From: a virus
Virus record (IMG/VR): IMGVR_UViG_3300014720_001630
Location: 1-59,454 of that record
Length of the DNA: 59,454 bases
Reading direction: 5' to 3' (one strand)
The position numbers were made by a program, and so were the translations under genes. Each line of letters begins with the position of its first letter. Within the stretch, counting starts at the first letter, position 1. The notes below the pieces were generated by a model. That model was given only the letters and a program-made list of their open reading frames with translations, ran no database searches and was not told where the DNA came from. Below, piece after piece: positions 32,872-55,461 of the stretch.

Positions 32872-35800
32872 ATGGCACAGTCCATCGCGCCGCCGGACGA
32901 TTTGGTATCGCCGCCTGACGACCTTGTGGCCGTCAAGGGTCCGCCCGACGATTTGATCCAACCGCCGGACGACTTGGTTGCTGCACCTGCACAGCGGGGC
33001 TTCTTCGAGGCTCTTGGTGCGGGTGCTACGGCCGGCGTCGAGGCGCTTGGCGAGCAGGCCGGTACGCTTGGTGCGCTGGCGACGGGCCGCGCTGCCGAGG
33101 CTGCCGTGGAGGGCGCCAAGCCGCCGACCGCGCTGGACGAGCGCACGCGGGATATGTCGATCTGGCAGAAGATCACGGACCCCGAGTGGCTTGCCTACAA
33201 CATCGGCCAGACGGCTCCGCAGTCCGCGCCCTTTCTTGGTGGTGCTATTGCAGGCGGCGCGGCGGGCTCGCTTGCTGGCCCCGTCGGCACCCTCATCGGC
33301 GCGATGGTCGGCGGCGGCGGTGCGGCGGGCGCGCAGCAGTTGGCCGAGGCGTACAACGAGGCGCGGCGCGCGGGTCAGGACCACGACAAGGCGGTAGACA
33401 CGGCGATGATCGCGGGCCTTGCGTCGGCTGGCATCAACGCGGCGTCGGTGCCCGCCGGTCTGTTGCGCATCGCCAAGGGTCCGATTCAGTACGCGCTGAC
33501 ACAGATGGCCGTGCAGCCGGCGATCGGTGGTGCGGAGCAGGCGGCGCAGAACGTGATCGCCCGCGAGCGCGGCGTGGATCCTGACCGGCCTATCGGACAG
33601 GGCGTGCCCGAGGCCATCGCCCTAGAGGCGCTGTTTGAGGGGCCGGCGCAGGCGGCGGGGACGTTCGCCGGGCGCCGCGCGCTGCCGCAGGGCCAGCAAC
33701 CGCCGCCGGACTTGGTGGCGCCGACTGAGGCCGAGCCTGCCGCGGTCGAGCCGCCCGCCAAAGCGCCGGACATCAACGAGCCGTTCGGGTTTGAGATCGA
33801 ACCAGGTCGCGTCGTTCCCGCCCGCGTGCTGGAGTATTTCGAGCAGGACGGCACGCTCTACGCCCGTCTTGCCGAGGAGACGCCGGACGCTGCGGCCATG
33901 TCCACGCCCGAGGTGGTCGCGGTAGACGACATGCTTGGGCTCGTGCGCGATGCGGTGCCGGAGCCGGAGGGGCGGGCGCGTCCGACCGAGGCCGAGCCGG
34001 TCAGCCTTACAGACGAGGCGGCGCGCTTTGGCGAGGGGGTTCCTGACGAGCCCGAGAGTCCGCAGGGGCGGCTAGCCGTCGAGACGCCGCAGGGTCCGCT
34101 GCAAATGCGGATCGAGAACCTGTCGCCGCGCACGCTGGACGGTGCCGTGCGCGCCAACTACGAGGCGGCCGAGCGGCTTGAGCGCGACCCGGTGGTGGCG
34201 CTTGACCGTTACATGAGCCAGCAGGGCATGAGCCCCGAGGAAGCCGAGGCGGCGGTCCAGCGCGACATCGCCAAGTTCCGCGAGAACGGGCGCATGTACG
34301 AGGCCGAGCGGCGCCGGCGGCAGGGTGAGGAGACGCCGGACGTGGATCCGCGCGCGGGCCTGACGCCGTTGCTGCGCCAGCGTCCCGAGGTGAGCGAGGC
34401 AGACACGGGGCCACTGACGCGCCCGCGACCGGAAGGGCCGGGGCCTGTGCAGGGTGCGCTTGGTCCGGTGGCAGGCAGCGAGGCTGAAACTGGGGTGCCC
34501 TTGACGCGGCCGCGCCGCGAGGCGCCGCTGATGACCATGCGCGGTGGCGTGCCGGTCAGCACCGAGTTGGCAGGACGGCAGCCGACGCCGCGGCAGGCTC
34601 GCTTGCAGCCGCAGGAGCAGCGCGTCCGCACGCCGGAGGAAGTCGAGGCCGACAGGCAGGCCGCAGAGGCGCGCGCCGCAGAAGCAAAGCGTCGTGCTGA
34701 ACCTGCGGCGGTGCGCTATTTCGACTACGACAAGAAAAAGTCGTTTGTCAAAATGCTCGATCGCACGGTCGGCAAGCGCAACTACACGCTCGAAAAGTCG
34801 GGTGGTGGCTGGCGCGCTACCGTTAAGGACGGCGTCAAGTTGACCGAGGGCCAGCGCGAGGCATTGGATGCGTCGCTCAATGCTCAACGGCAGCGCAGGA
34901 CGAAAGCGTCTGAAACAGCTAAGGCGCGCGGGCCTTCGCAGAAGTCAATGTCGCTTTTGGAGTCCATCGCGCAGCGCGGCATCCGCGCCGGAAGTCCCGC
35001 CGCTCAACGTCTTGGCGAGCCGACGCTTGCTCGATGGAAGCCCGAGAAGGCACTTGGGCCGGGACGTTATTCTCGCTTAATCGTGCAAGAAGGCGACCCG
35101 CGCTGGCAGAACGCCGTCACCGAGACGGACCAGTTGGCTGGTTTCCTTGAGGGCATAGACCCGCTCTACATTGGCGAGGAATACCGCGGCAACAAGTCGG
35201 CGTATGAGCGCGTCGAGGAATTGATCGGCGAGGAACTGTCGGGCAACCGGCAGATGCCGCTCGACTACTACGACAGTGAGCAGGCTGCCGCCGACCGCGC
35301 GCAGGCGCTTGTCGATCAATACGGTAACGAGGCCGACGCGACGGACATTGATGCCGCGCTTGATGCGCGTGATGTTGTCGATCCCGACGACCCCTCAACG
35401 TACATGGACTACGAACCGCCGCCGGTATCCGACGCCGAGTGGGCATCCATCATGGAGGAATACGATGTTGGGCAACGAGACGCCGGAGGAGAAGCATCGC
35501 CGCGCGCTGAGGAATCTGCGGTCGGTGAGGGCCGTGATGGCGAGGCCCGAGTTGAAGCCCGAGAAGCGGGAACAGGTGCGGCGGCTGCTGGAGAAACAGA
35601 AGCGGCTGGTGCGCCTGTGCGCGGAACAACTGAAACCGTCCGCAACGTCGTAGGCGCCACCGAGCAGGGCGTCATCCCCGGCACCGAGCAGTCGGCAAAG
35701 CAGGCACAGGCCGCGCGCGATGCGAAGGGTGGGCTACGGGCTACCGTCGAACAGAAGAAAGCGGACGAGGGGTTGTTCTCTCCTCCGGCCATCGCGCAAG

Positions 35801-38800
35801 AAACGCTGCCCATGTCGCCGGACCAGTTGTTCGTGCAGATGGGTGAGCGCCAGTATCCCGTGAAGTCGCTTGCCGAGGCGTCAGATAAATTTGCGCGGGC
35901 GCGCGACACATATGGCGAAGGTGCGAGCAAGACGCCGACGCCAATTGTGGTTGACGGGCGCGGCGATGTCGTCGGGTACATCGCGTATAATGGAAAAGTT
36001 TTCCCCGGTCGCCCGCAAGATTGGCAAGAAGGCGTCAAACCGCTGTTCACGCCCGGCGAGCCAGAAGCTCCGAGGCTTATCGCCAAGCCCGACGACCAGA
36101 ATCCCCTATTCGAGTTGCAATCCACCGCCCGCGAAACCGAGCGCATGTCGGAGCAGGCGGTGCGCGATGCCATCGCCGCCATCGCCGGTCCCGAGGCTGC
36201 GAAGCGCGCGGTCGTGGAGCCCGGCACCGATGGAATCCGCGGCTCGTTCGATCCTGCCGATGGCGTCATAAGCGTTGCCGTCCGCAGCCCCGACATGCGG
36301 GGCACGCTGCGGCACGAGTCGCTGCACTACCTCAAGAGCATGGGTGCCTTCTCGCCGACGGAGTGGGCCACGCTTGAGAAGGCGGCGGTCGAGTGGCGCG
36401 AGAAGTACGACATCGACCGGCGGTACAACGAGGATACCGTTACCGACGTGTCGCCCGAGACGCTTGAGCGAATCCGCAAGGAGGAAGCCATCGCGGCAGC
36501 CTACGCGGAGTGGGCGCGCGGCGACATGCCGGGGCTGGCGCCCAAGATCCGCGCGCTGTTCGAGCGAATCCGCGCCATTCTCGACGCCATCCGTGCGCGG
36601 GTGATGGGTAGCCCCGAGACGGCACGGGCGATCTTCTACAACATCGACAACGGCAAGTACGTCGCCGCTGCAACGCGCGCCGATCGTGCGCGGTTTGCAA
36701 GTGCGGTGGCCGACGCTGACATGGCTGCGGCGACTGTCGCTGCGGACGGCGAGCAGGCAGTCGGCGGCAACGTGCCGCGCAAGGAAGCTGCGGCGCTGCG
36801 GATGTTCGAGCGCGAGCCGATAGAGAAGCGCACCGGCCCGCGCTGGCTGTCGTGGGGCACGCGCATCGCGTCGTTCCCGCTTGCGCGTGCGGCGAACGAT
36901 CCGATGTTTGCGCCCTACGTCAACGCGGAACTGTCGCGGCAGAAGCGCGAGTCGGCCATCACGCGGACGATCCAGACGGGCGTGGAGCCTATCTTCCGGC
37001 TGCCGACCAAGGAGCAGAACGAGGTCCGCAAGGCGCTGGAATTGATCGCACTCAACAACTCGTTCCCGCCGGTCATCAACGGGCGCATGACGGTGCAGAA
37101 CCAGTCCGGCAAGATCGCCCGCCTCACCGGCCCCAAGCGCATCGTCCGCCTGTCCCCCGAGGCGACCAAGGCCATGCTGTCGTACAAGGCCGGCATGGAC
37201 GCAGCGTGGGATGCGTATGCGACGGGTGCGGTGCGCAACGCCACGAACTACACGGGCGACATGACGGTGGAGGCAGCGCAGGCGGCGGCGCAACAGGCGG
37301 TCGCTGCGGGTCAGAAGTCTGCGACCAAGGATGCCGAGACGGCGGCGCTGATCCTGCAAGCGGCCAAGGAACAGAAGCGGCGCGGCTACTATCCGGCCAT
37401 GCGTGACGGCGATACGCAGGTCATCGTGCGGCGCAAACTGACGCCCGAGTTCGCGCGCATCATCGGCATGGCGCGGTCGCGCGGCTACCCGAAGGGCGAG
37501 CCGCTGACTGCCGAGGGGCTGGACAAGTTCGTGGATGCGGCGCGGACGACAAAGGACATCGAGTTCTGGTCGGGCCTGCGCTCGGACTTTGACGACGCGC
37601 GCGGCGAGAAGGGTGTCGTCTCGGTCAACGACGACATGGTTTGGAACGAACATTTCTACGTCAAGCCGCCGTTCATGGGCGAGGTCATCCCCATGACGGA
37701 GCGTGCGCGCCAGCGTGCGACGGAAGCCAAGAAGGCCGAGGTTGCGGAACTGATGACGCGGCGCGGGCTTGACATGCGCGAGTACGAGATCGTCACGCGG
37801 CCCGTTCGCGAGAGCCTGCAAGACACGATCAACGACCAGTCCGTGCCGGTATTCGAGAAGCTGTTGAAGGTCGCGACGGACGGCGACCCCAAGATGTTCG
37901 CGGAACTGTGGCCGCAAATGCGCGATGCCATAGCCAAGGAATTGGTGTCGGGCTTCCGCAAGCGGTCGGACGTGGTGCCGGGGTTCTCGATGGACATCGG
38001 CGACACGCTCTCGCGCTACAGTCATGCGGTCGGCAATGTCGCGGCCAAGCTTGAATACAAGAAGGGCATTGACGAGTCGCTGCGCTCCATCATGGAGAAC
38101 CACCCCGACCCTGCGATGCGCGGGTCCAACGGGTATGCGGCACGGCTCAAGGACTACGTTGACAATCCGGCGCAGGACTACAACGCGCTCAAGTCGTTCG
38201 GGTTCATGTACTACCTCGCAGGCGTCCCGAGTACCGCCGTGCAGAACATGGCGCAGGTGCCGATGCTCATGGTCCCGCAGATGACGGGGCTGCTTGGCGT
38301 GCGCGGGGCTGGCATCGTGCGGCAGGCGTGGACCGACTCGCTGCGTGGCGTCACGTTCGGCAAGGGCGGCGTGCGGATGGATGTGTCCAAGTTGGGCAAG
38401 ACGCCGGCCGAGCGCGCGTTCCTCAAGCGCATGGACGACGAGGGGCAGATTTCCGCGTCCGTCACGCGGGAGTTGATGGGGCGCGACTACGACGTGGGGC
38501 CGCGGCTTGAGGCGGCGCAAGGGTTCTGGCGCAAGACGTACACAGTGGCGGCGTCCATGTTCGACGCGGCGGAGAGCCTTAACCGGGCGACGGCTTTGCT
38601 TGCGGGATACCGTGCGGCGCAGGTGCCGGGTGCCGACGCCAAGCTCAAGAAGGTCTACGGCCAGAACCAGAACTACCGCGAGATGGCGAACCGCGACGGC
38701 ACGATCGACCCCGAGGCGTTCGGCGAGTTCTTCTCCCGTGAGGTCAATTTCGAGGGCAGCCGCGTCAACCGGCCCGAGGCGCTGCGCGGTGCGGGCGGCG

Positions 38801-39738
38801 TCATCCTGCAATTCAAGTCGTACCCCATGAACTACATTTCGCTCCTGCGGAAGAACGCCACGCAGATGGGGCCGGAGGGTAAGGCGGCGTTCATCATGAT
38901 GATCGGCATGATGCTGCTCGGCGGTGGCCTGCTCGGGCTGCCGTTCGCGGAGGATATGGCGGACTTGTTCGACCAGGTTGCCAAGATCGTGACCGACGAG
39001 AACGAGGGTGCCGTGCATACCCTCGCGGCCATGATGGAGGACTGGAGGCTTGGCAAGTACGGCGCGGAGATGATGCTGCGCGGCGTGTCCCGTCCGACCG
39101 GCGTGGATCTGTCGCGCACGCTCGGCATGGGCAACATCGCACCGCGCATGGACAACCCGGTCGCGGTGCTCGGGCCGACGGCATCGGCCCTGCTCGCTGG
39201 TCCGTACTACGGCTACAAGCGCCTCGACACGGGCCAGTCGGTCGCGTCTGCGGCAATGGAGGTGGCACCCCGCGCGCTCAAGGGACCGCTACAGGCGGCT
39301 GCCGTGCTGCCGGAGGAAGGGCTTGTCAGCCGGACGGGGCGCCAGATCATTCCCCCGTCCGAGGTGAGCACGGGCGCCAAGGCGGCCCGCGCCCTAGGCT
39401 TCCAGCCGACCGAGTTCTCGCGCGAGTACGAGGCCCGCGGCTACCGGCAGGACGTGCAGGCCAAGGCGCTGGCCGAGGCGACAAGGCTCAAGTCCCAGTA
39501 CCAGCGGCTCAACGCGCTGGCCTACGACCAAGAGCGCGCCGGCGACAAGGACAAGGCCGAGCAAACCAAGCTGCGCGCCCGTCGCGTGGCCGAGAACATG
39601 GCTGCCAAGGGCATTGCCGTGCCGCGTGGGCGCGATGCCGTCGGTCCAAATGTGGACCCCGAGGCGGCGGCAGTCCGGCAGGCGCCCCGTCGCGTGCGCG
39701 AGCGGATGATGGATAGTCCGTATCCGGGGCGGGAGTAG
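32872..39738 (+). CDS. Giant ejection-type virion protein with zincin motif
   Basis: The 2288-residue protein is by far the largest. Residues ~6-40 hold four PPDDL repeats. Residues ~100-160 are Gly/Ala-rich and hydrophobic. A long acidic, Pro-rich stretch (280-640) is probably disordered. Residues 1148-1152 read HESLH, a zinc-peptidase HExxH motif, with EE near 1204 (EEAIAAAYAEWARG) as possible third ligand. Helical domains follow and a membrane-like segment (AAFIMMIGMMLLGGGLLGL) lies near 2005. I relate it to large polyvalent or internal virion proteins that enter the cell with DNA. Codon bias changes locally, notably at 34.7-35.1 and 35.46-35.65 kb. Confidence 0.75.
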   Translation: MAQSIAPPDDLVSPPDDLVAVKGPPDDLIQPPDDLVAAPAQRGFFEALGAGATAGVEALGEQAGTLGALATGRAAEAAVEGAKPPTALDERTRDMSIWQKITDPEWLAYNIGQTAPQSAPFLGGAIAGGAAGSLAGPVGTLIGAMVGGGGAAGAQQLAEAYNEARRAGQDHDKAVDTAMIAGLASAGINAASVPAGLLRIAKGPIQYALTQMAVQPAIGGAEQAAQNVIARERGVDPDRPIGQGVPEAIALEALFEGPAQAAGTFAGRRALPQGQQPPPDLVAPTEAEPAAVEPPAKAPDINEPFGFEIEPGRVVPARVLEYFEQDGTLYARLAEETPDAAAMSTPEVVAVDDMLGLVRDAVPEPEGRARPTEAEPVSLTDEAARFGEGVPDEPESPQGRLAVETPQGPLQMRIENLSPRTLDGAVRANYEAAERLERDPVVALDRYMSQQGMSPEEAEAAVQRDIAKFRENGRMYEAERRRRQGEETPDVDPRAGLTPLLRQRPEVSEADTGPLTRPRPEGPGPVQGALGPVAGSEAETGVPLTRPRREAPLMTMRGGVPVSTELAGRQPTPRQARLQPQEQRVRTPEEVEADRQAAEARAAEAKRRAEPAAVRYFDYDKKKSFVKMLDRTVGKRNYTLEKSGGGWRATVKDGVKLTEGQREALDASLNAQRQRRTKASETAKARGPSQKSMSLLESIAQRGIRAGSPAAQRLGEPTLARWKPEKALGPGRYSRLIVQEGDPRWQNAVTETDQLAGFLEGIDPLYIGEEYRGNKSAYERVEELIGEELSGNRQMPLDYYDSEQAAADRAQALVDQYGNEADATDIDAALDARDVVDPDDPSTYMDYEPPPVSDAEWASIMEEYDVGQRDAGGEASPRAEESAVGEGRDGEARVEAREAGTGAAAAGETEAAGAPVRGTTETVRNVVGATEQGVIPGTEQSAKQAQAARDAKGGLRATVEQKKADEGLFSPPAIAQETLPMSPDQLFVQMGERQYPVKSLAEASDKFARARDTYGEGASKTPTPIVVDGRGDVVGYIAYNGKVFPGRPQDWQEGVKPLFTPGEPEAPRLIAKPDDQNPLFELQSTARETERMSEQAVRDAIAAIAGPEAAKRAVVEPGTDGIRGSFDPADGVISVAVRSPDMRGTLRHESLHYLKSMGAFSPTEWATLEKAAVEWREKYDIDRRYNEDTVTDVSPETLERIRKEEAIAAAYAEWARGDMPGLAPKIRALFERIRAILDAIRARVMGSPETARAIFYNIDNGKYVAAATRADRARFASAVADADMAAATVAADGEQAVGGNVPRKEAAALRMFEREPIEKRTGPRWLSWGTRIASFPLARAANDPMFAPYVNAELSRQKRESAITRTIQTGVEPIFRLPTKEQNEVRKALELIALNNSFPPVINGRMTVQNQSGKIARLTGPKRIVRLSPEATKAMLSYKAGMDAAWDAYATGAVRNATNYTGDMTVEAAQAAAQQAVAAGQKSATKDAETAALILQAAKEQKRRGYYPAMRDGDTQVIVRRKLTPEFARIIGMARSRGYPKGEPLTAEGLDKFVDAARTTKDIEFWSGLRSDFDDARGEKGVVSVNDDMVWNEHFYVKPPFMGEVIPMTERARQRATEAKKAEVAELMTRRGLDMREYEIVTRPVRESLQDTINDQSVPVFEKLLKVATDGDPKMFAELWPQMRDAIAKELVSGFRKRSDVVPGFSMDIGDTLSRYSHAVGNVAAKLEYKKGIDESLRSIMENHPDPAMRGSNGYAARLKDYVDNPAQDYNALKSFGFMYYLAGVPSTAVQNMAQVPMLMVPQMTGLLGVRGAGIVRQAWTDSLRGVTFGKGGVRMDVSKLGKTPAERAFLKRMDDEGQISASVTRELMGRDYDVGPRLEAAQGFWRKTYTVAASMFDAAESLNRATALLAGYRAAQVPGADAKLKKVYGQNQNYREMANRDGTIDPEAFGEFFSREVNFEGSRVNRPEALRGAGGVILQFKSYPMNYISLLRKNATQMGPEGKAAFIMMIGMMLLGGGLLGLPFAEDMADLFDQVAKIVTDENEGAVHTLAAMMEDWRLGKYGAEMMLRGVSRPTGVDLSRTLGMGNIAPRMDNPVAVLGPTASALLAGPYYGYKRLDTGQSVASAAMEVAPRALKGPLQAAAVLPEEGLVSRTGRQIIPPSEVSTGAKAARALGFQPTEFSREYEARGYRQDVQAKALAEATRLKSQYQRLNALAYDQERAGDKDKAEQTKLRARRVAENMAAKGIAVPRGRDAVGPNVDPEAAAVRQAPRRVRERMMDSPYPGRE
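35465..35653 (+). CDS. Nested 62-residue basic protein inside the giant gene, other frame
   Basis: A separate frame starts at ATG 35465 with GGAGG six bases upstream and ends at TAG 35653. By hand count 54 of 62 codons end in G or C, like real genes here, whereas the host gene's frame has 27 of 63 over the same stretch and encodes only a Glu/Ala/Gly-rich linker. The product is basic and helical (EEKHRRALRNLRSVRAVM, REQVRRLLEKQKRLVRLC). Function unknown. It may be an older gene captured and overprinted by the giant gene. Confidence 0.65.
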   Translation: MLGNETPEEKHRRALRNLRSVRAVMARPELKPEKREQVRRLLEKQKRLVRLCAEQLKPSATS

Positions 39739-43458: not shown

Positions 43459-43634
43459 TGCGGCACCGCATCCAACTCCGCAAGCGCGGCAGTTAAAGCC
43501 GCCACCTCCGGCTCATCCAAAATGATAACGGCGTGGTTGGCATCGTTTGCTTCGGCGTCTCGACGCATTAAAGCTAACAATGCCCGCGCGCTTGTAATGA
43601 CGGCAAGCGCCGCATGTTCTTCGGCATGGGTCAC
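43455..43634 (-). CDS. Hypothetical protein, 59 residues
   Basis: GTG at 43634 overlaps the microprotein stop (GTGA), and the end overlaps the YqaJ start (ATGA). The protein is helical (EEHAALAVITSARALLALM) with a strand NHAVIILDEPEVAAL. Local G+C is slightly lower than flanks. Function unknown. Confidence 0.6.
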   Translation of the reverse strand: MTHAEEHAALAVITSARALLALMRRDAEANDANHAVIILDEPEVAALTAALAELDAVPQ

Positions 43635-43696
43635 AGGATCACCGCGCCCACGGCCATGATCGCCAACGACAGCAGCACCCATTCGAGCGGGGTCAT
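43631..43696 (-). CDS. 21-residue membrane microprotein
   Basis: A 22-codon frame starts at ATG 43696 with a strong AAGGAGG ribosome site and overlaps the next start by four bases. The product, MTPLEWVLLSLAIMAVGAVI plus Leu, is a single membrane segment with almost no soluble part. The ribosome site makes it credible. It could regulate a membrane protein or simply couple translation. Confidence 0.6.
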   Translation of the reverse strand: MTPLEWVLLSLAIMAVGAVIL

Positions 43697-43697
43697 G

Positions 43698-43874
43698 TCA
43701 GTCCTCCTTCTCAGCCAGTTTGGTCATCAAATCCGCGACAGCCTCGGCCTCCGTCGGCCCGTAGCCGTACAGACCTTCCTCCTCGTAGCCGTCCTCCCAC
43801 GCCTGCCAGTCGAACCGGCGGTCGGGGATCGGCGGATGCGTAAACTCGGTCTTGATCGTGGCGCGGGGTTTCAT
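43698..43874 (-). CDS. Small acidic protein, 58 residues
   Basis: ATG 43874 follows AGGGAG. The product contains FDWQAWEDGYEEEGLYGYG and ends in an acidic helix. It opens the recombination operon, downstream of a TGCAACACT element at 43900-43908 and a leftward TTGACA at 43925-43920. Function unknown. Confidence 0.65.
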   Translation of the reverse strand: MKPRATIKTEFTHPPIPDRRFDWQAWEDGYEEEGLYGYGPTEAEAVADLMTKLAEKED

Positions 43875-43899
43875 TTGCACTCCCTGTCTCGGCAAACCA

Positions 43900-43925
43900 T
43901 GCAACACTCATTATCCCCCTGTCAA
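43900..43925 (-). promoter_or_regulatory. Candidate regulatory site before the recombination operon
   Basis: Leftward TTGACA (43925-43920) is present but I see no convincing -10 box at 16-18 bases. TGCAACACT (43900-43908 on the + strand) is identical to a site in the promoter region at 52618. This fits an operator shared by the two Cro-like regulators. Confidence 0.4.
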
Positions 43926-43928
43926 CAC

Positions 43929-46508
43929 CTAATACGGAGCGTGGTCGCGCTCGTACCTGTCGTCTACGCCGGGCCGCGGCACGTTGCCGCCGTGATTGCG
44001 CCACGGCGTCTCGGACATGGGCTTGAACGACCAGCCTTTGAACATGCGGTAGCCGTTGAGCGTGATACGCCGCATGCCCTTTTCTTCCATCTTCTTGGCA
44101 AAGTATTGCCGCGACCAACGCTCGATGCGGCGATCGTGCCGGTAGCGAGCCCACTTGATAAGCGCCTCGTACAGATCGGCGGTGTTGATCTTTTCGTCCG
44201 GGTCGGCGACGAGGTTCGCCTGCACGAACTCGCCAAGCACGTCCTCGTCCTCCTTGTACTCGGCGGTGGCGTCGAGCACGGCCGGCGGGATCGGCAACTC
44301 CGACAGGGCCGCCTGCATCATCGCGCCCTCGATCATCCAGCGGAAAATCTGCGGCCCCTCCTCCTCAAGCAACTCCTTGTAGATTTCTTTCTTGTCGGCC
44401 TTTCCCTCAAACTTGGCGTTGAACGGAATGAGTTTGATGCGGCGCCAGGTGCCGTGGGTCTGGTCGAGGATGTTGGGCTTGGTGTTCGACATGAGGAACA
44501 CCTTATGCGTGGCGTCGAACTCGACATGGCTTTGCTGCAAGTGACGCCCGATCATCGTGTCGCCGCCCGTGATGCGCTTGATGGTGCCCATGGAGAGGGT
44601 CGCGTTCTGCTCAAGCTCGGCGGTGTAGAACATGCGGGCGCCCTTGAACCGGATCATGCGGTACTCGGGATTGCCGCCGCGCGGGATGCCGTCGAGCAGG
44701 ATGTCCGGGCTGTCGGTCGTCGCGTAGTCGCCGAGAAGGTGGCGCAGGATGTTGAGCAACTGGCTCTTGCCGTTCTGCCCCTCGCCGTAGAAGAAAAACA
44801 GGCATTGATGGCGCACGTCGCCGGTCAGCGCGTACCCGCACATAAGCTGCATGAAATGCGCGAGCGCATCGTCGCCGCAGCAAATGTCCATGATGAACTT
44901 GATGAACCGCTTGGGCCGGTCGCCGGACGGCGCGACGTGATAGGGCGCGCACTTCGACACGAGCCATTGCGGGCCGTGCGGGTGGATGTCGCCGGTCTTG
45001 AGATCCACGACGCCGGAAAGGGTATTGAGCAGATACGGGTCGCGGTCCATGTTGCGAGCGTCGAATTGGACGCCGGCAAGCGCCTCGGCCGACTTCATCA
45101 TCGCCTCGACCTTGCCCGTGCTCTGCGTCGAGATGGCCCACCGCTCCACCGCGCGCTGCGCGTCAAGTCCGTCGGCGTGCTGTGCCTCCCACTGAATGCG
45201 GATGGCGACGGACTGCGCAAGGCGGCGCACGGCGAGCATGTCGGGCACCCAACGCTGGCCGTTGAAGTAGACCCATCCGAGGCCGTAGCTGTATTTGATC
45301 CTGTCGCCAAACCAGGCGGCGAGGCGGCGGGCGTTGCCGAGATCCGTGTGCGGCTGCGCGCAGGCGTAGCCGAGGACGGCCGACCACTTCGGGCTATACC
45401 TGTCGTCGTCCGACTCCCAAGTAGGCCGGACTTCGATGACTTGCTCGGCGGCTGGCGGCGCCGGGAGTGCGAGCGGGGCGTGCCCATTCGCATGGCCGTT
45501 AAGGTAAACCTCGCCCGTCTCCGGGTCGTGAGGCGGCGGTGCAGGGGGCGGCGGCAACGCGCGTGTGCGCGGCTGCTGGCTGGCGCGTCCCCACCATTCC
45601 GGCAGGTCGATCGCCTCGCCGCCGACAGCGTCGGCCGCGGACTTGAGCGTGGTGCTGATCTCCTGATCGTGCAGACCGAGGCTCGCGGCGTGGGCGCGCA
45701 GCGCGGCTTCAACCTGTGCGGCCTCCATATGCCCGGCATTGATCCACTTGCGCGCGTTCGTCGCCACCTTGAACAGCGTGGCGTTGCGCTTGCCCTCCTG
45801 CGCGGTGGCAAGCTCGGCAATCATGTTGTCCCATGCGCCGTCGCGGTACTTCTGCTCGCGGCGCCCGACCTTGTGCGGGTCGTCGGTGCCGCGCGGGCGG
45901 CCGAGTTTGGGTGTCGTGGCCTTGGGCTTGGGGCGCAGCAGGTTGACAAGCCACTCGGGCGCGTCGGCCAGCGGCAGGTCGGCCGGCGAGAGGGTCATTA
46001 CCCAGTCGTAGACGTGGCCCGAGCGGTGGACAGATCCCGCCGCGTGGACCGTCGAGCCCTTGGTCTTGGACTCGATGCCCGGCCCGAGTTCGCCGTTCGT
46101 GTTCCGCAGGTCGTCGCCCGTGTAGCGGAAATAGATGTGGCAGCCGCGCGACGTGGCAACGCGCCAGGTGTCCGGCAGCGGCTCGTGGCGGTCCTCCAAA
46201 TCCTGCAACGCTTGCGCTGCGGCAATTCCGTCCACGTCGAGCACGAGCAGGCCGGACACAGGCCCGGCGCAGATGGCAATGTTTGCCTTGGGGTATCGCT
46301 TCTCCCACGCGGCAAATTCTTCGTCGGTCGGCAGGCGGGTTTGAAACGGCTTCCACTTCACGAGCGGGGCCTTGCCGATCTGCTTCTCGTCAACCTCGCT
46401 CGTCTGCGGGTCGATCATCGCCTTGGTGGCGCGCATCCCCGGCGCGTGCGTCGGGAACACCGAGAAGCCAAGGGCGCGCAGGCCTCGGGCGTGGGCGAGG
46501 AAGGTCAT
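43929..46508 (-). CDS. Primase-polymerase / SF3 helicase
   Basis: The 859-residue replication protein has an N-terminal PrimPol domain (about 1-200) with GLLVLDVDGIAAA (catalytic Asp pair) and GCHIYFRYTG, a linker, a D5_N-type domain, and a superfamily 3 ATPase with Walker A GEGQNGKS (about 575-582) and MIRFKGARMFYTAELEQ downstream. It would prime and unwind phage DNA. ATG 46508 overlaps the methyltransferase stop; an earlier start is less likely. The phage seems to rely on host DNA polymerase. Confidence 0.9.
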   Translation of the reverse strand: MTFLAHARGLRALGFSVFPTHAPGMRATKAMIDPQTSEVDEKQIGKAPLVKWKPFQTRLPTDEEFAAWEKRYPKANIAICAGPVSGLLVLDVDGIAAAQALQDLEDRHEPLPDTWRVATSRGCHIYFRYTGDDLRNTNGELGPGIESKTKGSTVHAAGSVHRSGHVYDWVMTLSPADLPLADAPEWLVNLLRPKPKATTPKLGRPRGTDDPHKVGRREQKYRDGAWDNMIAELATAQEGKRNATLFKVATNARKWINAGHMEAAQVEAALRAHAASLGLHDQEISTTLKSAADAVGGEAIDLPEWWGRASQQPRTRALPPPPAPPPHDPETGEVYLNGHANGHAPLALPAPPAAEQVIEVRPTWESDDDRYSPKWSAVLGYACAQPHTDLGNARRLAAWFGDRIKYSYGLGWVYFNGQRWVPDMLAVRRLAQSVAIRIQWEAQHADGLDAQRAVERWAISTQSTGKVEAMMKSAEALAGVQFDARNMDRDPYLLNTLSGVVDLKTGDIHPHGPQWLVSKCAPYHVAPSGDRPKRFIKFIMDICCGDDALAHFMQLMCGYALTGDVRHQCLFFFYGEGQNGKSQLLNILRHLLGDYATTDSPDILLDGIPRGGNPEYRMIRFKGARMFYTAELEQNATLSMGTIKRITGGDTMIGRHLQQSHVEFDATHKVFLMSNTKPNILDQTHGTWRRIKLIPFNAKFEGKADKKEIYKELLEEEGPQIFRWMIEGAMMQAALSELPIPPAVLDATAEYKEDEDVLGEFVQANLVADPDEKINTADLYEALIKWARYRHDRRIERWSRQYFAKKMEEKGMRRITLNGYRMFKGWSFKPMSETPWRNHGGNVPRPGVDDRYERDHAPY

Positions 46509-48082
46509 TCGCTTCCCTCGCGCAGCTTTTCGACCATTGCGATGCGCTCGCCGATCCAACGCATCACGGGAACGGCCATGCTATTTCCGTATGCGCGGTA
46601 CTGTGGACCGTCGGGACACTCGGACGCTGGCCGACCGCGCCAAGGAATTTGCGTCCAGTTGTCAGGAAATCCCTGCAATCTGGCGCACTCGGTCGGCGTC
46701 AGGCGGCGCACTTGCATGGCGTGCAGCAGCTTTGGCCCGGAGTGATTGGGCGCACCGCTTTCGGCGTTGAGCGTTGAAGTGACATCGCCGTCTATCGTCT
46801 GATTGTAGACATCGACCGCCACCGCAACCTGACCGCCGCCGTTCGCGTGGCTTCCGGCGTGGCCCATCGCGCGCAGTGTCGGCGCGGTGTCGCCGGCGTC
46901 GCCGCCGTGATCCTTGGCGCTGAACGCCAGCACATGCGGCTTGTCGCCGCCTCCTTGCGAGGCGCGCAGGGCGTGCGCCTTGTCGTCGCCGAGTTCCGCC
47001 GTCGCCCCGCCGTCGCGGCCGCGCAGGGCTACGCTGACCGGCACCAGCGGCGTGCCGCGGCCCGTGCCGTCCTCGCTGGCGTCGAAGCCTTCGCCGCGCA
47101 GGGCGCGGGCAACAGCTTGCACCTCGGCGCGTGCTTCCAACGTATAGGCGATATCGGCTTGGATGCCAACGCCGTCAGGGCCAGATGCCGGGTTCTCACG
47201 CAACGCGCCCGCTTGAATGGCGTGGGCGACAAACAGCCCCGCGCCGCCGAGCGCGTGCTGGTCCTCAAGGCCCTGCTTCTCGCCAAACGCCGCGTTGAGC
47301 GTCGGCGCTACGTCGGCCGGCAAGCGCGTGTCGGCGATCAGCGCTCCGTCGAGTTCGGCGTCGGTGCCGAGCCCGCCACCGACTCGAGTGCGCGCCGCAA
47401 GAGTGGGGGCAGTTCCTTGCCGCGCTTCTCGGCGCGGCGCAGGATGCCAGCGCAGGCTTTCGACGACAGGAAGAAGCGCGTCGGCACAGTCCCAGTTTCC
47501 AGAATTTCCGCGAGCGAGCACGAATACGCGCCGCCGTCGTTGCGCCAAGCCGAAGTGCTGGGCGTCCAAGATCCGCCATGCGGCGATTCTTTTGGGTCCA
47601 GAAACCACGCCTGCATCGGTCCATCCGCACCCCGCTGGCGCAACGATGGGTGCATCGTGGCCGACCAATCCCGCCAAGAAGGCGCCAAAGGCATTGTCGG
47701 CGACGGAGAGGATTCCGGGGACGTTTTCCCAAAGGATCCATGCGGGCTTGCGCCGAGCATCGCGTCGAAGATCGTCAATTGCATTTGCGAGCCTCACGAA
47801 TTCAAGGGTCAGGTTGCCGCGGTCGTCGGCGAGGGACTGCCGCAGGCCGGCGACGGAGAAGGCTTGGCAGGGCGTGCCGCCGACGAGGATGTCCGCGTCC
47901 ACAATCCACGCTTCGTCGCGCAGCTTCGTGAAATCGCCGTGGATAGGAACATGCGGGAATCGATGCGCCAAGACGGCGCGCGGGAATGCTTCGATCTCCG
48001 AGAACGCAAGCGGCGTCCAGCCAAGCGGTTCCCACGCCACGCTGGCAGCCTCAATCCCGCTGCACACGGACAAATACCTCAT
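46505..48082 (-). CDS. DNA cytosine-5 methyltransferase
   Basis: The 525-residue enzyme has C5-methyltransferase motifs in order: SVCSGIEAASVAWEPLGW (AdoMet), GGTPCQAFSVAGLRQ with catalytic Cys72, LWENVPGI (ENV), AQRRRRVFVLA, then a long variable region and the closing motifs VRRLTPTECARLQGFPDNW and YRAYGNSMAVPV. The variable region, where target recognition resides, holds at least five repeats of a TLxA/TL-type unit (APTLAA, APTLNA, AYTLEA, APTLRA, STLNA). It may protect phage DNA from restriction. Confidence 0.93.
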   Translation of the reverse strand: MRYLSVCSGIEAASVAWEPLGWTPLAFSEIEAFPRAVLAHRFPHVPIHGDFTKLRDEAWIVDADILVGGTPCQAFSVAGLRQSLADDRGNLTLEFVRLANAIDDLRRDARRKPAWILWENVPGILSVADNAFGAFLAGLVGHDAPIVAPAGCGWTDAGVVSGPKRIAAWRILDAQHFGLAQRRRRVFVLARGNSGNWDCADALLPVVESLRWHPAPRREARQGTAPTLAARTRVGGGLGTDAELDGALIADTRLPADVAPTLNAAFGEKQGLEDQHALGGAGLFVAHAIQAGALRENPASGPDGVGIQADIAYTLEARAEVQAVARALRGEGFDASEDGTGRGTPLVPVSVALRGRDGGATAELGDDKAHALRASQGGGDKPHVLAFSAKDHGGDAGDTAPTLRAMGHAGSHANGGGQVAVAVDVYNQTIDGDVTSTLNAESGAPNHSGPKLLHAMQVRRLTPTECARLQGFPDNWTQIPWRGRPASECPDGPQYRAYGNSMAVPVMRWIGERIAMVEKLREGSE

Positions 48083-48148
48083 CCGAGCAAACCTCCCCCG
48101 TTCTCGCGCGTTGTGTGCGAGCTATATGCGGACCACAACATATGGGGG

Positions 48149-48709
48149 CTATCCTGTCGGCTGCGGCGAGGGCGTCAGTCTGCGAGCACCGTCCGTCGGC
48201 TGCGGTGTGGGTGCGGTAGTCGGCGTCACGTCGATCAGCTTGCCGGACAGGTACGCCTCAAGCTCCTGCGTGCTCATCGTCTCGACGGACTTGCGGACGT
48301 TGACGTTGACCTCGGTGGTGATGAGGCCGTTGACCTTGGCAAGCGCTTCGAGCAGCCCGCGGCCGGCGGTCGCCTGACCTGGCGAGATGCGTTCGGCCTT
48401 CAGGTCGTCCAGCAACGATGCGATCTCGCGGTTCACGAAGTCGCGCGTGATCTCGACGCGGCTCTGCTCGCCGACGGGCGTGCCCTTGGGATTCCGCTCG
48501 GCCTCGATGCGGCGGACGGTCGCTTCCTGCGCGCGACGGAGCAGCGGCGCATAGAACGGGTCCGACATGATCTGGTCGTACTCGGCCTGCCCCAAGCCGA
48601 CGGCGCGGGCAGCGGCCAGCGGATTGAAGTTGCGGCCTAGTTCTTGGAAGAACAGGTCTTGCTTTGCGGTGAGGGGCTTGTCGCCGGGAGGCTTGTCAGG
48701 GGCCGTCAT
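48149..48709 (-). CDS. Possible terminase small subunit
   Basis: The 186-residue protein begins with a helix-turn-helix-like part: LTAKQDLFFQELGRNFNPLAAARAVGL, resembling the N-terminus of small terminases that recognise packaging sites. The middle is helical (REIASLLDDLKAERISPGQA) and the end Pro/Thr-rich. It is on the opposite strand and 45 kb from terL, which is unusual, so the call is tentative. Ends overlap the VRR-NUC start. The 66-bp gap to 48083 shows nothing. Confidence 0.45.
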   Translation of the reverse strand: MTAPDKPPGDKPLTAKQDLFFQELGRNFNPLAAARAVGLGQAEYDQIMSDPFYAPLLRRAQEATVRRIEAERNPKGTPVGEQSRVEITRDFVNREIASLLDDLKAERISPGQATAGRGLLEALAKVNGLITTEVNVNVRKSVETMSTQELEAYLSGKLIDVTPTTAPTPQPTDGARRLTPSPQPTG

Positions 48710-49191
48710 ATCTCACCTGTCGGGGTGGGCTTCTTCGGTCGGGAGGGGCCGGTGGACAAGACCGGCCCCATGACGCTGTTTCCAGCGCCAGCCCCGACAG
48801 GAAGCGCGACCGGTATAGCATCGGCCCGCTTGAGATGCAACACTTGTTGCGGCGTGAACATGCGGGCGACCCCCTCTAGCGCGTCGTCAACCGATCGCGC
48901 GAGGATGTAAGTCCCGCCGGCGGCTTCGATCGCGCCCTGCCAATCTATCTGCTCATCGCTCTGCTTGGACCATCGGACGGGGCGCTTGACCTCGATCGCC
49001 AAGAACCTTCCGTAGTAGCAGCCGAGAATGTCAGCCTGTCCCGGCATGCCGCCGAAGCGGATCGAGCGCGGGCCACCTTTGGTCCGCACCCATCCGTTGC
49101 CGACGGCGCTGCGCCAGATCGCCATGCCGGGGTAGGTGCCCAAGGCTAGGAGGATCTGGTCTTGGATGGTTTTTTCTTTGGGGGGCGGCAT
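48706..49191 (-). CDS. VRR-NUC nuclease
   Basis: The 161-residue protein has the VRR-NUC pattern: an N-terminal helix, WRSAVGNGWVR, FGGMPGQADILGC with the catalytic Asp, FLAIEVKRP with E-x-K, and DWQGAIEAAGGTYILARS. Such small nucleases act on branched or flapped DNA in phage recombination and packaging. A Pro/Gly-rich tail is extra. TGCAACACT also occurs inside this gene (around 48834) next to TGTTGC. Confidence 0.85.
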   Translation of the reverse strand: MPPPKEKTIQDQILLALGTYPGMAIWRSAVGNGWVRTKGGPRSIRFGGMPGQADILGCYYGRFLAIEVKRPVRWSKQSDEQIDWQGAIEAAGGTYILARSVDDALEGVARMFTPQQVLHLKRADAIPVALPVGAGAGNSVMGPVLSTGPSRPKKPTPTGEI

Positions 49192-49328
49192 GCAAGGATC
49201 CTGACGTGGTTCTTTCCGTACTTGTCGTGGTGCGCTGGCGCCCCGTCGGTCGGCTTGTAGCCCTTCGGCGGCTTGTGACCGTGGGGCACGCGGCGCACGA
49301 TGGCGGTTTGGCCGACGCGGAGTTTCAT
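49146..49328 (-). CDS. Small basic protein, 60 residues
   Basis: ATG 49328 overlaps the preceding methyltransferase stop (ATGA), and the 3' end overlaps the VRR-NUC gene by 46 bases in another frame. The product is basic (VRRVPHGHKPPKGYKP, PPKKKPSKTRSS) with a strand-like start. It may bind DNA. Family unknown. Confidence 0.6.
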   Translation of the reverse strand: MKLRVGQTAIVRRVPHGHKPPKGYKPTDGAPAHHDKYGKNHVRILACRPPKKKPSKTRSS

Positions 49329-49891
49329 GGGCTCACCCATCCGAGCGTGGGCGGTCCTTTGTGCGAGTGATCCCAAACGAACCATGCAAACGCGATCATG
49401 CCGCCCTCGTGCTTCTCAGCCAGCCGGGCACGCTGCAAGCTGAGGCGTCCGGCGAACACCCATACCCGCGCAAGCGGCGTGCTCTCAAACATCTTGCGCC
49501 GCTCGCGGCCCTCAAGCCATGCGAGGCGGCACAGCATGGCGACCTTGCCTGTGGTCAAGTCGAGCGCCTTGCGCACGAACGGCTCGGCCATCTTGAACGG
49601 CGGGTTGGTCACGATGTTGGGCGCGCGCGGCTTGTATTCCATGAGGAAGTCGGCGCGCGACTCTCCGTACCCTCGGTCAACCAAGTCGCTGCTGATAACC
49701 TCGTAGCCTGCGTCAATGAGCACCTTGCTGATCGCGCCGTCGCCGCATGCGGGTTCCCATATCGGCCCGTCGAAACGCTCGACCGACAGCAACGCGCGCG
49801 TGCCCTCCGGCGGCGTAGGATAGAAGTCGTCACGCTCGCGGTTCTCGGCGTCGGGAATGATGCCGCGGACATATGCTTGTGCTCCGCTCAT
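49325..49891 (-). CDS. DNA adenine N6-methyltransferase-like protein
   Basis: The 188-residue protein carries FYPTPPEGTRALL, the AdoMet-binding segment IWEPACGDGAISKVL and the catalytic NPPF in IVTNPPFKMAEPF. These are hallmarks of compact phage N6-adenine methyltransferases. It overlaps the helicase gene upstream and the small basic gene downstream by four bases each. Likely role: modifying phage DNA to resist restriction. Confidence 0.85.
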   Translation of the reverse strand: MSGAQAYVRGIIPDAENRERDDFYPTPPEGTRALLSVERFDGPIWEPACGDGAISKVLIDAGYEVISSDLVDRGYGESRADFLMEYKPRAPNIVTNPPFKMAEPFVRKALDLTTGKVAMLCRLAWLEGRERRKMFESTPLARVWVFAGRLSLQRARLAEKHEGGMIAFAWFVWDHSHKGPPTLGWVSP

Positions 49892-52344
49892 CCCGCCTTA
49901 ACCCCCATCTCCAAAGCCAGCCGCATCCTGTCGCGCTCTTTCTTCTGCCGTCCCGCAAGCACGATCTCGGCCCATCCGCGCTTGTAGCCCTTTGCCGCCT
50001 CGACGGCCTTGAGCGATTGCAGGGCGGCGTCCCAGTAGCCCTTTGGCTTGCCCGTCTCGGCGTGGCTGCCGCGCACGATGCGCTCAAGCTCGCCCTCGAC
50101 GTACTCCACCTCGCGGACCTTGACGGTATACGCATGGCCGCAGCGCGGGCAAGTGGGGCTGAATTTGTGCACCGAGAGGCACTTGGGGCAGTTGCGGAGT
50201 GCTACCGCCCGCTCGTCGCTCGTCTCGCGCTTGGCGCCGCCGTCCAGCGTCCACGCCACGCGCTCGTCGGGGAGGCCGTGGACGAGGGTGTTGCCGGCGT
50301 GGTCAAGGATTATGAGCGACTGCTTGCCGGGGAAGGGACGCAAGCCGCGGCCGATCTGCTGGCGGTGAAGCCCCATGCTCTTGGTCGGCCGCAAAAGAAT
50401 GACGACCTCGATCCTGGGAATGTCCGTGCCCTCGGAGATGATGTCGCACGAAGTCAGGCCGTGGATCTTGCCGTCGGTCATGTCCTTGATGAGGCCGCGC
50501 CGCTCCTCCGCGCTCATCTTGCCGTCGATGCTCTTGAACCGATAGCCGGCGGCGCGGAATTGTGCCGCGACTTCCTCAGCGTGCGCGACAGAGACGCAGA
50601 ACACCACCGCGCTCTTGCCGTCCGCGAGGCGCTTGTAGTGCTTGACCGCATCGCCTGTGATCGCGGCCTTGCGCATCGCGGCGTCAAGCTCGGACGAAAC
50701 GTAGTCGCCGGCGCGCGTGTGGACGCCCGACAGGTTGGGCGGCTTCGGGGCGTAGACCTCGAAGTCGGACAGGAAGCCTTGCGTGATTAACTCGTCGGTG
50801 TGCGGACCTAGCACCATCGCGTCGAAGATGTCGCCGAGTCCTTTGCCGTCGAGGCGGCAGGGTGTGGCGGTGAGGCCGACGACCTTGGCCTCGGGGAAGT
50901 GGCGGATTACGTCGGCCCATGTCTTAGCCAGCGCGTGATGCGTTTCGTCCACGAACAGCAGGTCTGGCTTGAGCGGCAGCCGTTCCTTGCGTCGGTGGAG
51001 CGTGCCGATCGACGCCACGATGACGTTGGCGCGCGGCATGCCGTGCGTGGCGGCCGTGAGGAACGAGAACGGCACGCCTACTGTGCGCAATGCGGCGCCA
51101 AGCTGGAACACGATCTCCGTGCGATGCCCGAGATAGATCGCGCTCTTGCCGTTCTTGTGCAGGCCGGCGCCGATCAAGGATGCGATGGCGGTGTTGTGTG
51201 TCACCGTCATGTCGCCGAGCAGGTACAGGTTGTCGCCGCCCACTTCGAAGCCGAAATACTCACCCAAGCCAACGTGCTCAATCGACCGCACACCAGTAAG
51301 AAGCACGTCCTTAATTTGTTTCCTGCGCGCGGCGATTTTTCGGGGCAATCTGCATGGAACGGTGTCGATGTCTCCGCTGATTGAAATAGACGTATACTGG
51401 CCGACCGCGCCATTGTTGTAACAAGTTTTACTTGTGCGGCGCGCATATGCGGCAAGTCCAAGCGAGCGCGCCAAAAATAAAATGTCGTTTGCAAGCGCCT
51501 CGGACTTCTGCGAAATCAAATATCCTTTGTGGCTGTAATAACCGTCGGAGTCGATTAAACCCGCCATCAATTGCAGGCGCGCTTCGCGCGTGGCTGTCTT
51601 GTAGATTTGCGGGATATGTTTATTGTTGACCACCCGCATTTTCTTGAGTTGCGAGAAAACCGGATTTGAGTCCGAGCGGCCCGTTCTTCCCGCTGTCAAA
51701 ATGTATGTAGAGGCTTTGTTGTTTTTCTTGCTGTCTACCCGGACGCCAAGCCCATATCGATGCGCTGTTTCGTACACAACAGAGGAAATTTCTCCGTCCA
51801 TTGTCGTGATGCCGGCCTTCGCCGATGCGCCATCGCCGAGCCAGAGCCCGAAGAAATAAGGATCGAGCGGCAAATCTTTTGACTCTGCGGCACCGTCAAA
51901 CGTGACAGGAACGCGCCACAATTTGAGCAAATGTTTGGTGGTCTTTCCAGCGCAAAGCCATGCCGCAACGCTCATATTGACAGTCTCGCCGCCGCGCCAA
52001 CCTCCAACCCCCTTCGCGCCGTTAGTGACGCGAAAACTCAAAGTGTGGTTGGCCGTCACAACGAACGGGTCGCCCTTCACTGGCGTGACGCGGAATAGGT
52101 CCGCGGTGCCGTTGCCAGTTGCGACGACCGTGCGCGGTCGGCTGTCTGGTCCCAACAACTTGTGCCCAACCCGAATGTCTTGAGACATAAGAACGCGCCC
52201 GTCTGCCATGAGAACGGGCGTATCGCGCGCCAGACACTTGCCTCCGCCGGTCGGCAGCACGAAGCACACGCGCTTTGCGCCCGCGCTGAATGCCGCGCGG
52301 ATGTCTTGGATCGCTTGCGTTTGGTAGGGGCGCGGGGTGAGCAT
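49888..52344 (-). CDS. SF2 DEAD/DEAH helicase containing an intein
   Basis: The 818-residue precursor starts MLTPRPYQTQAIQDIRAAF and reaches the P-loop TGGGK at residue 36, where a 348-residue intein begins; the host protein resumes at Thr385 (TAIASLIGAGLH). Remaining helicase motifs follow: LLFVDETHHAL (Walker B), LTATPCRLDG, and motif VI QQIGRGLRPFPGKQ. The C-terminus carries a zinc finger, CPKCLSVHKFSPTCPRCG. The mature enzyme would be ~470 residues and translocates on DNA in replication or repair. ATG 52344 overlaps the regulator stop. Confidence 0.93.
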   Translation of the reverse strand: MLTPRPYQTQAIQDIRAAFSAGAKRVCFVLPTGGGKCLARDTPVLMADGRVLMSQDIRVGHKLLGPDSRPRTVVATGNGTADLFRVTPVKGDPFVVTANHTLSFRVTNGAKGVGGWRGGETVNMSVAAWLCAGKTTKHLLKLWRVPVTFDGAAESKDLPLDPYFFGLWLGDGASAKAGITTMDGEISSVVYETAHRYGLGVRVDSKKNNKASTYILTAGRTGRSDSNPVFSQLKKMRVVNNKHIPQIYKTATREARLQLMAGLIDSDGYYSHKGYLISQKSEALANDILFLARSLGLAAYARRTSKTCYNNGAVGQYTSISISGDIDTVPCRLPRKIAARRKQIKDVLLTGVRSIEHVGLGEYFGFEVGGDNLYLLGDMTVTHNTAIASLIGAGLHKNGKSAIYLGHRTEIVFQLGAALRTVGVPFSFLTAATHGMPRANVIVASIGTLHRRKERLPLKPDLLFVDETHHALAKTWADVIRHFPEAKVVGLTATPCRLDGKGLGDIFDAMVLGPHTDELITQGFLSDFEVYAPKPPNLSGVHTRAGDYVSSELDAAMRKAAITGDAVKHYKRLADGKSAVVFCVSVAHAEEVAAQFRAAGYRFKSIDGKMSAEERRGLIKDMTDGKIHGLTSCDIISEGTDIPRIEVVILLRPTKSMGLHRQQIGRGLRPFPGKQSLIILDHAGNTLVHGLPDERVAWTLDGGAKRETSDERAVALRNCPKCLSVHKFSPTCPRCGHAYTVKVREVEYVEGELERIVRGSHAETGKPKGYWDAALQSLKAVEAAKGYKRGWAEIVLAGRQKKERDRMRLALEMGVKAG
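51193..52236 (-). mobile_element. Intein with LAGLIDADG homing endonuclease
   Basis: The intein covers codons 37-384 of the helicase: Cys1 (CLARDTPVLMADG), block B NHTLSF, endonuclease motifs FGLWLGDG and LMAGLIDSDG, and the end VTHN with +1 Thr. All splicing residues (Cys1, block B Thr/His, penultimate His, terminal Asn, +1 Thr) are present. Its DNA has clearly lower G+C and more A/T-ending codons than the helicase, a sign of transfer. Confidence 0.93.
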
Positions 52345-52559
52345 TACGCCTGCCGTGCAGCCTCCGCCGTCCGCGGCTCCGGCCAGTCCATCAAGCCCAC
52401 CGCCCCCCGCGTGGCGACGAACACGCGGCGCACGAGCGAATACGTCGGCTGCCGCTTGCCTTGCGTGACGAACGTAAGTGTCGAGGGATGCTCGCCGATC
52501 GCGCGGGCAAACTCCGCCTGCCGGATGTTCTGCGTGGTCAGCCAGTCCTTGAGTGTCAT
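52344..52559 (-). CDS. Cro-like helix-turn-helix regulator 2
   Basis: The 71-residue protein has RQAEFARAIGEHPSTLTFVTQ, a helix-turn-helix, and a short end. It resembles the regulator at 39976 in length and motif order (MTL, then xLA/FA, IG, then TxxxxxxG). Its TAA overlaps the helicase ATG, so it heads the leftward block. It probably acts at the promoter region beside it. Confidence 0.78.
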   Translation of the reverse strand: MTLKDWLTTQNIRQAEFARAIGEHPSTLTFVTQGKRQPTYSLVRRVFVATRGAVGLMDWPEPRTAEAARQA

Positions 52560-52606
52560 GGGGTGCTCCTTGCCTTGCGCGGCAGCGTATTTGGTCGGTG
52601 GCTCTC

Positions 52607-52657
52607 AACCTACCGCGTGCAACACTTATTGACAAGGGGTGCGCGCAGGAATAGTGT
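52607..52657. promoter_or_regulatory. Overlapping divergent early promoters
   Basis: Rightward: TTGACA (52629-52634), 17-base spacer, TAGTGT (52652-52657). Leftward: TTGTCA (52635-52630), 17-base spacer, TAGGTT (52612-52607). The -35 boxes share five bases. TGCAACACT (52618-52626) lies inside the leftward spacer. This is a compact switch between the small early genes and the helicase-to-RecT block. Confidence 0.65.
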
Positions 52658-52683
52658 GGCGACCTCACGACAGGAGGACAAGC

Positions 52684-53070
52684 ATGCCCCGCCCCGGCAC
52701 GCATCAAGGCACCTACAGCGTCGAACTCGAACTCGCGGAGGTGGACGAAAACCCCGCGGCGACGTTCGTGCTCGACATCGAATACACCTACAGCCCCGGC
52801 AGGCCCGCGCGCTTATCTCCATGGCCGGGCGAGCCCCCCGAGGGCGCCGAACTCGAAACTGAGGCCGACCTGTTCCTGCTCGACGGGACCAAGCGCATCG
52901 CCATTCCCGCCGAGGCGAAGGCGTGGCTGCTGCGCGTCATCGACCCCGCGCGCTACGTCAACAGGATCTTGAACCAGGCCGCCGAGGAAGCCACGGACGC
53001 GCGCGCCGCAGCGCAGGAGGCTCGGTGGGAAAGCCGGCGCGAGGAGAGGGAGATGGCAAGTGACCGATAA
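52684..53070 (+). CDS. Hypothetical early protein, 128 residues
   Basis: ATG 52684 has an AGGAGG site and is the first gene after the rightward promoter. The product has a strand-rich N-terminal half (YSVELELAEVDENPAATFVL) and a helical charged C-terminus. Function unknown; being first in the operon suggests early expression. Confidence 0.65.
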   Translation: MPRPGTHQGTYSVELELAEVDENPAATFVLDIEYTYSPGRPARLSPWPGEPPEGAELETEADLFLLDGTKRIAIPAEAKAWLLRVIDPARYVNRILNQAAEEATDARAAAQEARWESRREEREMASDR

Positions 53071-53548
53071 ACTGACGCCGGGGCAACTGCGGGACTTGGC
53101 GCAAGTATTGCGCGACGCGAGCGGGATCACATGGAACGGCTTGCTCGAAGAAGCCGCGCGCCGCGAGGCCGATGCGAAGCCGCAGTGGTCCGATGCAGGG
53201 CAAGTCTGGGCGACCGCGACTGGTAAAGCCCCGGCCCCCGCCGACGATCTGCACAAGGCCATCGACAAACTGAGCGATGCAGTTTCCCGCTTCCGCAACA
53301 GTATGCACGGCCAATCGCAGACCGACTACAAGGCGCAGGCTGACGCGCTCAACGCCCGCGACGAAATCAAGGCGCTGTTTTCGGCACTCAAGGCCGACAA
53401 CGCGCGGCTGCGGGAGGTTATGGGCAACGTGCTCCCGATGATCGGCGTGCGCCTCGATGCAAGGAGCGACGCACAGCGCGCCTGCGACATCAACGCGGCT
53501 TGGCACATGCTGAGCAACGCCCTCGCGGCAGGAGGCGACCGTGGCTAG
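53060..53548 (+). CDS. Hypothetical helical protein, 162 residues
   Basis: GTG at 53060 lies inside the end of the previous gene. The sequence is helical, with TPGQLRDLAQVLRDASGITW near the start and a coiled-coil-like centre (LHKAIDKLSDAVSRFRNSM). Family not recognised. It overlaps the next gene by eight bases. Confidence 0.6.
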   Translation: MTDKLTPGQLRDLAQVLRDASGITWNGLLEEAARREADAKPQWSDAGQVWATATGKAPAPADDLHKAIDKLSDAVSRFRNSMHGQSQTDYKAQADALNARDEIKALFSALKADNARLREVMGNVLPMIGVRLDARSDAQRACDINAAWHMLSNALAAGGDRG

Positions 53549-53804
53549 ACCGACGCTGAAAGAGCGGGCGTGGGGCATGGTGCGCCGCAAGTTCGGGCCA
53601 CACGGCATTCCGCCTGTGCGCGAGGCCTACGCGAACGGTGTCATCGCAGGCTGGCACGCGCGAGGCCGGGTCGAGCAGCTCACGAAGGCACGGCGCGCGG
53701 TGGTCGAGGCGGCTATCCGTTGTCACAACCGAGATTTTCGAGACGGAGTGAACGCTCTTGTAAAGGCCATCGCCAATCTCGAACGCGCACGGAGGAAGGC
53801 ATGA
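53541..53804 (+). CDS. Hypothetical basic protein, 87 residues
   Basis: GTG at 53541 is within the end of the previous gene. The product is basic and helical (TLKERAWGMVRRKFGPHG, RRAVVEAAIRCHNRDF) and ends RARRKA. It might bind nucleic acid. Function unknown. Confidence 0.6.
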   Translation: MARPTLKERAWGMVRRKFGPHGIPPVREAYANGVIAGWHARGRVEQLTKARRAVVEAAIRCHNRDFRDGVNALVKAIANLERARRKA

Positions 53805-55231: not shown

Positions 55232-55461
55232 CCAAGCCCACGATCAGCGTCGGGGATGTATCCAGATTCTGCGAGGTCGCGGGCATTAAGAGGCCGGGAC
55301 TCGGCACCGTAGATAGCGCGGCCCTCTCGAACGCCCTCGCCGACTTCCTCGCGCGCCGGGTGCCGGATGCGCGGGATGCCGGGCACAAGGACGATGAGGT
55401 CGGGTATTGCAACGCGGGCTTCAATGCCTGCCGCGACATGGTTTTGCGAGGTGGCAAATGA
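55228..55461 (+). CDS. Hypothetical protein, 77 residues
   Basis: ATG 55228 overlaps the previous stop and the end overlaps the next start. The protein is helical with a conserved-looking CNAGFNACRDMVLRGGK end. No family recognised. Confidence 0.58.
   Translation: MTKPTISVGDVSRFCEVAGIKRPGLGTVDSAALSNALADFLARRVPDARDAGHKDDEVGYCNAGFNACRDMVLRGGK

Follow-up and report, generated by a model that had tools for sequence, protein, structure and literature searches.

A probable +1-frame gene overprinted on a giant polyvalent phage gene and its candidate counterparts in related giants

Analysis of a single IMG/VR virus record, whose full 59,454 bases are referred to here as the window, indicated that positions 35465 to 35653 very probably hold a real overprinted gene, which would be internally initiated on the messenger of a giant polyvalent gene and represent one case of a general design. 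The observations behind this reading are a coding-phase signal, a start codon with its own ribosome site, a predicted fold, recurrence across the family of giants and purifying selection on nested ORFs of other families. It is also likely, if somewhat less so, that polyvalent giants of tailed phages in general hold a hidden layer of short +1 linker genes to which the 62-codon gene of the window belongs, comprising many independent families, some common to phages of cyanobacteria and of alpha-, beta- and gammaproteobacteria, and missing from current annotation.

The nested ORF and its giant host gene

The host gene (32872..39738, + strand; 67% GC) encodes a protein of 2288 aa, which we classify as a polyvalent protein because residues 1935-2212 (38674..39507, +) match the PLxRFG/tail-700 domain NF032893 with 197 bits, compared to a curated cut-off of 100, and because the protein also matches DarB-like families. 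A role as an ejected protein is plausible. The nested ORF (35465..35653, +) lies wholly within this gene in the +1 frame, over giant residues 865-927 (35464..35652, +), which form a Glu/Ala/Gly/Arg-rich linker, and its 3' end overlaps the conserved giant-frame motif TTETVRNVVGATEQGVIPG (35626..35682, +). It extends from an ATG at 35465 to a TAG ending at 35653 and is preceded by the Shine-Dalgarno sequence GGAGGA (35454..35459, +), located 5 bases upstream of the ATG. The sequence and coordinates of this frame, its ribosome site and its start in the earlier note were correct, the spacing being GGAGGA-5-ATG. Among the ATG genes checked in the window, GGAG, AGGA, GAGG or AAGG was also found upstream of 9 of 18.

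Codon signal of the nested frame

Recounting G or C at third codon positions (GC3) returned exactly the values reported previously, 54 of 62 codons in the nested frame and 27 of 63 in the giant frame. Mean GC3 of the giant gene is 0.82, and its minimum 63-codon window coincides with the nested-ORF stretch. In 2,000 synonymous shuffles, which retained the amino acids and codon set of the giant, this minimum averaged 42.5 and was never lower than 35, compared to the observed 27. The giant frame does recover its bias on either side of the stretch, as the earlier note had stated, but the return to normal values was overstated, since GC3 reaches just ~0.6-0.8 in places. The codon-usage log-odds of the +1 frame over the host frame was 13.5 across the nested ORF, a value matched in 2 of 2,000 whole-giant synonymous shuffles, whereas the +1 frame, which is also open ahead of the nested ATG, scored -60 there, indicating that the coding-phase signal begins at the nested start codon.

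Not every feature of the nested frame carries weight. When the stretch is re-drawn synonymously, the +1 frame stays open 78% of the time, so its openness alone is uninformative, and the high nested GC3 for the most part reflects the fact that codons of the Glu/Ala/Gly linker begin with G or C. More telling are the low GC3 of the giant frame and the codon-usage log-odds in favour of +1 over the host frame, and by the synonymous-shuffle nulls the coding signal exceeds what the host protein dictates. An accident of composition, given an E/A/G-rich linker and a gene with 67% GC, would agree with the frequent openness of the frame but is extremely improbable, because the shuffles fail to reproduce the GC3 drop and so rarely reach the phase score.

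Two other stretches of the window stood out in the codon analysis. An equally low GC3 window (27/63) occurs at 3091-3279, close to the start of the terminase ORF (2974-4617), and could be explained by start choice or recent acquisition. In the region 43614-46745, a +2-phase coding-like stretch with a score of 15.5 occurs at codons ~979-1007 of the ORF that begins at 43578, which is 1,043 aa long and without any PHROGs match.

The predicted protein and the search for relatives

The 62-residue protein (7.3 kDa) is strongly basic, with a pI of 11.2 and a charge of +8.6. A single-sequence AlphaFold2 model predicted a confident two-helix hairpin (helices 7-25 and 32-56; mean pLDDT 90), a score to be read with the caveat that helical hairpins may score high on their own. 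The protein matched no Pfam or NCBIfam family and gave just 0.19 with PHROGs, and a fold search of the model among viral models returned nothing with an E value under 0.6. We tentatively suggest a late-expressed accessory protein, which might bind nucleic acid or help the ejected giant protein.

Searches with the portal, major head, stabilisation and giant proteins recovered no closely related virus sequence that spans the giant gene; a 4,967-base contig with an identical portal protein and small head-gene fragments were found, and all of them stop short of it. No homologue of the nested ORF was present in the phage records, plasmids, viral contigs and family libraries searched, and tblastn with the 62-residue protein gave zero matches in phages and one in plasmids, at E 2. 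From these searches, the window ORF is an orphan.

The motif TTETVRNVVGATEQGVIPG also occurs in the giants of three viral contigs, two of which are identical there (RGTTETVRNVVGATEQGVIPG). Both distinct related giants have a different +1 ORF in the linker 5' of the motif, each with an ATG and an SD-like sequence. These ORFs are 55 and 53 aa long, with GC3 of 0.80 and 0.91, and show no significant sequence similarity to the window ORF. The earlier note had proposed that homologues keeping the linker with the nested frame broken would speak against a gene; instead, the linker sequence is not retained in the homologues, two of which have another +1 ORF at the corresponding linker.

The proposal that the giant gene captured the nested one while extending over it was not supported. 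The last ~10 nested codons overlie the conserved giant-frame motif, so the nested ORF is not a clean insert, and in our searches a stand-alone copy was found neither for this ORF nor for 12 other hidden families. Capture and de novo overprinting fit the evidence alike. The gene might instead have been captured or overprinted long ago and now be neither expressed nor selected, its codon signal being a relic, as the lack of homologues in our searches and the earlier suggestion of capture would allow. We consider this very unlikely, since start, ribosome site and frame are all intact, the signal is strong and, as described below, other hidden families show current selection.

The hairpin-like nested ORFs L173, L175, L181 and F6 look similar to the window ORF by eye; a proposed homology with them was withdrawn when an anchored profile and pairwise shuffles proved non-significant. 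No sequence homology was detected between the window ORF and the other hidden families (F1-F12, L173, L175, L181); in one of these comparisons, 878 of 5,000 shuffles scored as well.

Hidden +1 ORFs in PLxRFG/DarB giants

We examined further giants of this type, drawn from IMG/VR and GTDB genomes, with a codon-phase scan, which detects internal stretches where another frame outscores the main frame in codon usage; low-scoring phase matches at ORF edges were removed as start or frameshift artefacts. The first 90 giants contained 146 +1 matches with a score >10, compared to a mean of 4 (maximum 6) in synonymous shuffles, an excess in related giants that further argues against compositional accident, and 44 with a score >20, compared to 0.15. 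Among 116 unique giants (307,751 codons, edges excluded), we found 93 internal hidden ORFs, of which 92 were in +1 and one in +2, corresponding to 3.0 per 10,000 codons, although these class counts include related genomes and are not all independent. As a control, 895 further long ORFs from these loci (480,081 codons) gave 10 matches, some of which are pieces of split polyvalent genes, or 0.21 per 10,000 codons. The rate in giants is thus 14 times that of the control ORFs. An ATG with a Shine-Dalgarno sequence was found within 7 codons of the left edge for 44 of the 92 (48%), compared to 5% at random positions. Among hits to the 12 hidden families in the fetched loci, none was stand-alone and all but one were nested in +1, the exception being a tie with a second overlapping frame.

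These data bear on the possibility that a compensating pair of indels moved ~150 bases of the giant to another frame, so that the +1 reading would be a former giant domain and no separate gene. Such a pair would likewise yield coding-like codons out of frame, and the nested signal does fade near 35620-35635, where conserved giant-frame sequence resumes. Nevertheless, the signal sets in exactly at the ATG with its GGAGGA, and no related giant has the nested-ORF sequence (ELKPEKREQVRRLLEK-like) in its main frame. Moreover, random indel pairs predict equal numbers of +1 and +2 cases, whereas the giants give 92:1, and a start with a Shine-Dalgarno sequence is enriched about nine-fold at hidden-ORF boundaries. 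We therefore regard an indel pair as unlikely and favour an overprinted gene.

Further hidden +1 families were seen in giants of loci L093-L172 and L178-L222, for example those with the sequences MALKPxKPSKxARN, MIHPHLQYGWQM, MSAQxYEAKARKHW, EIANRWxLGWP, MPFKLPAEPQARKN and DSEIESLKKD. In a Burkholderiales MAG giant (L203, 1811-1996), the +1 stretch LYAAKVEADPDYWRTYSVGAPNMF... is without a convincing start and could represent a domain shifted out of frame rather than a gene. The polyvalent giant of Pseudomonas phage F116 (L176, 3349-14710) is annotated as two ORFs ~20 bases apart (47838-54227 and 54250-59199 of the record).

Selection and conservation in other hidden families

Pairwise differences in family F3 (MIHPHLQYGWQMNAQQALRLLRRLGAVSRQDARQM...) fell at nested positions 1/2/3 in proportions of 19/13/67%, that is, chiefly at position 1 of the host frame; the nested protein was conserved at 94%, compared to 84% for the overlying host sequence. 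This is the normal protein-coding pattern, as seen for host-frame positions 1/2/3 towards the C-terminus of these giants (18/13/69%), and indicates selection in the nested frame. F5 and F6 behave similarly in this substitution comparison, in which the pairs are not phylogenetically independent. The positional patterns of F1 (.31/.30/.40) and F2 (.34/.30/.36) were weak and were not taken as proof. By these sequence comparisons, purifying selection is thus established only for hidden families other than the window ORF, F3 among them.

The broadest conservation was observed for F5 (consensus like MNLNNWIELGRQHWKEFLPNRYRELKAAG...), which is nested in +1 within the annotated giants of Klebsiella phages SopranoGao and LASTA, Ochrobactrum phage POI1126, Agrobacterium phage Atu_ph08 and Microcystis phage Mwe-JY07, with no gene annotated at the site in any of the five. 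Alignments of the nested F5 proteins gave shuffle z-scores of 13-50, compared to ~-1 to 8 for the overlying host sequences of distant pairs. Like the window ORF, F5 is an unannotated +1 ORF for a helical small protein within a polyvalent giant of the PLxRFG/DarB type; unlike it, F5 is ~100 aa long and conserved across host phyla, and the two sequences are unrelated. Where examined (L159), F5 lies just 5' of a helicase/methylase domain. The AlphaFold2 model of F5 was too poor for a fold search.

In Sinorhizobium phage PBC5 (L243, 2733-3309), orf33 ends in the F5 nested frame and the giant, orf23, continues downstream in the host phase, an arrangement that suggests an indel in that record. Such an indel would explain the apparent presence of the F5 sequence in phrog_938. 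The match of F5 to this 'endolysin' family most likely reflects the tail of PBC5 orf33 and does not point to lysis.

Discussion

The independent basic, helical, overprinted protein proposed in the earlier note is the best-supported reading of the locus, given its charge, its confidently modelled helices, the recurrence of the design in related giants and the direct signs of selection that some of these show. We propose that ribosomes start internally at the nested Shine-Dalgarno sequence and ATG on the giant gene's messenger, which would be the simplest expression route, so that the window ORF is presumably translated into a 62-residue basic helical hairpin. Ribosomes in the giant frame would read the same bases as a disordered, dispensable linker in which sequence hardly matters, leaving the linker free to change and thus able to carry a second gene. 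In this reading, the linkers of PLxRFG/DarB-type giants repeatedly harbour short +1-phase genes.

In the genomes we examined, polyvalent giants account for a tenth to a quarter of the sequence, and each is treated as one gene; annotation pipelines disallow long overlaps, so that hidden genes within them are missed. If our proposal is correct, cultured phages offer dozens of new phage protein families for experimental study, and the giants become a setting in which to ask how new genes come to arise in a disordered linker and why these are almost solely in +1.

We found no description of overlapping, nested or hidden genes in polyvalent, DarB or PLxRFG proteins in the open-access literature, although an earlier report elsewhere is possible, and the terms searched in the 2017 polyvalent-protein paper (PMC5512222) returned no mention of overlapping genes. 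The host gene of the window belongs to the class of polyvalent, DarB-like antirestriction and PLxRFG proteins (PMC5512222; NF032893). Like known overprinted viral genes (reviewed in PMC8227390), the nested ORF is short, fully enclosed by a longer gene and read in a different frame from its own start and ribosome site. In contrast to those examples, the hosts here are polyvalent genes of tailed phages and prophages, and the overlaps lie in disordered linkers, nearly all in one phase, and form several recurring families.
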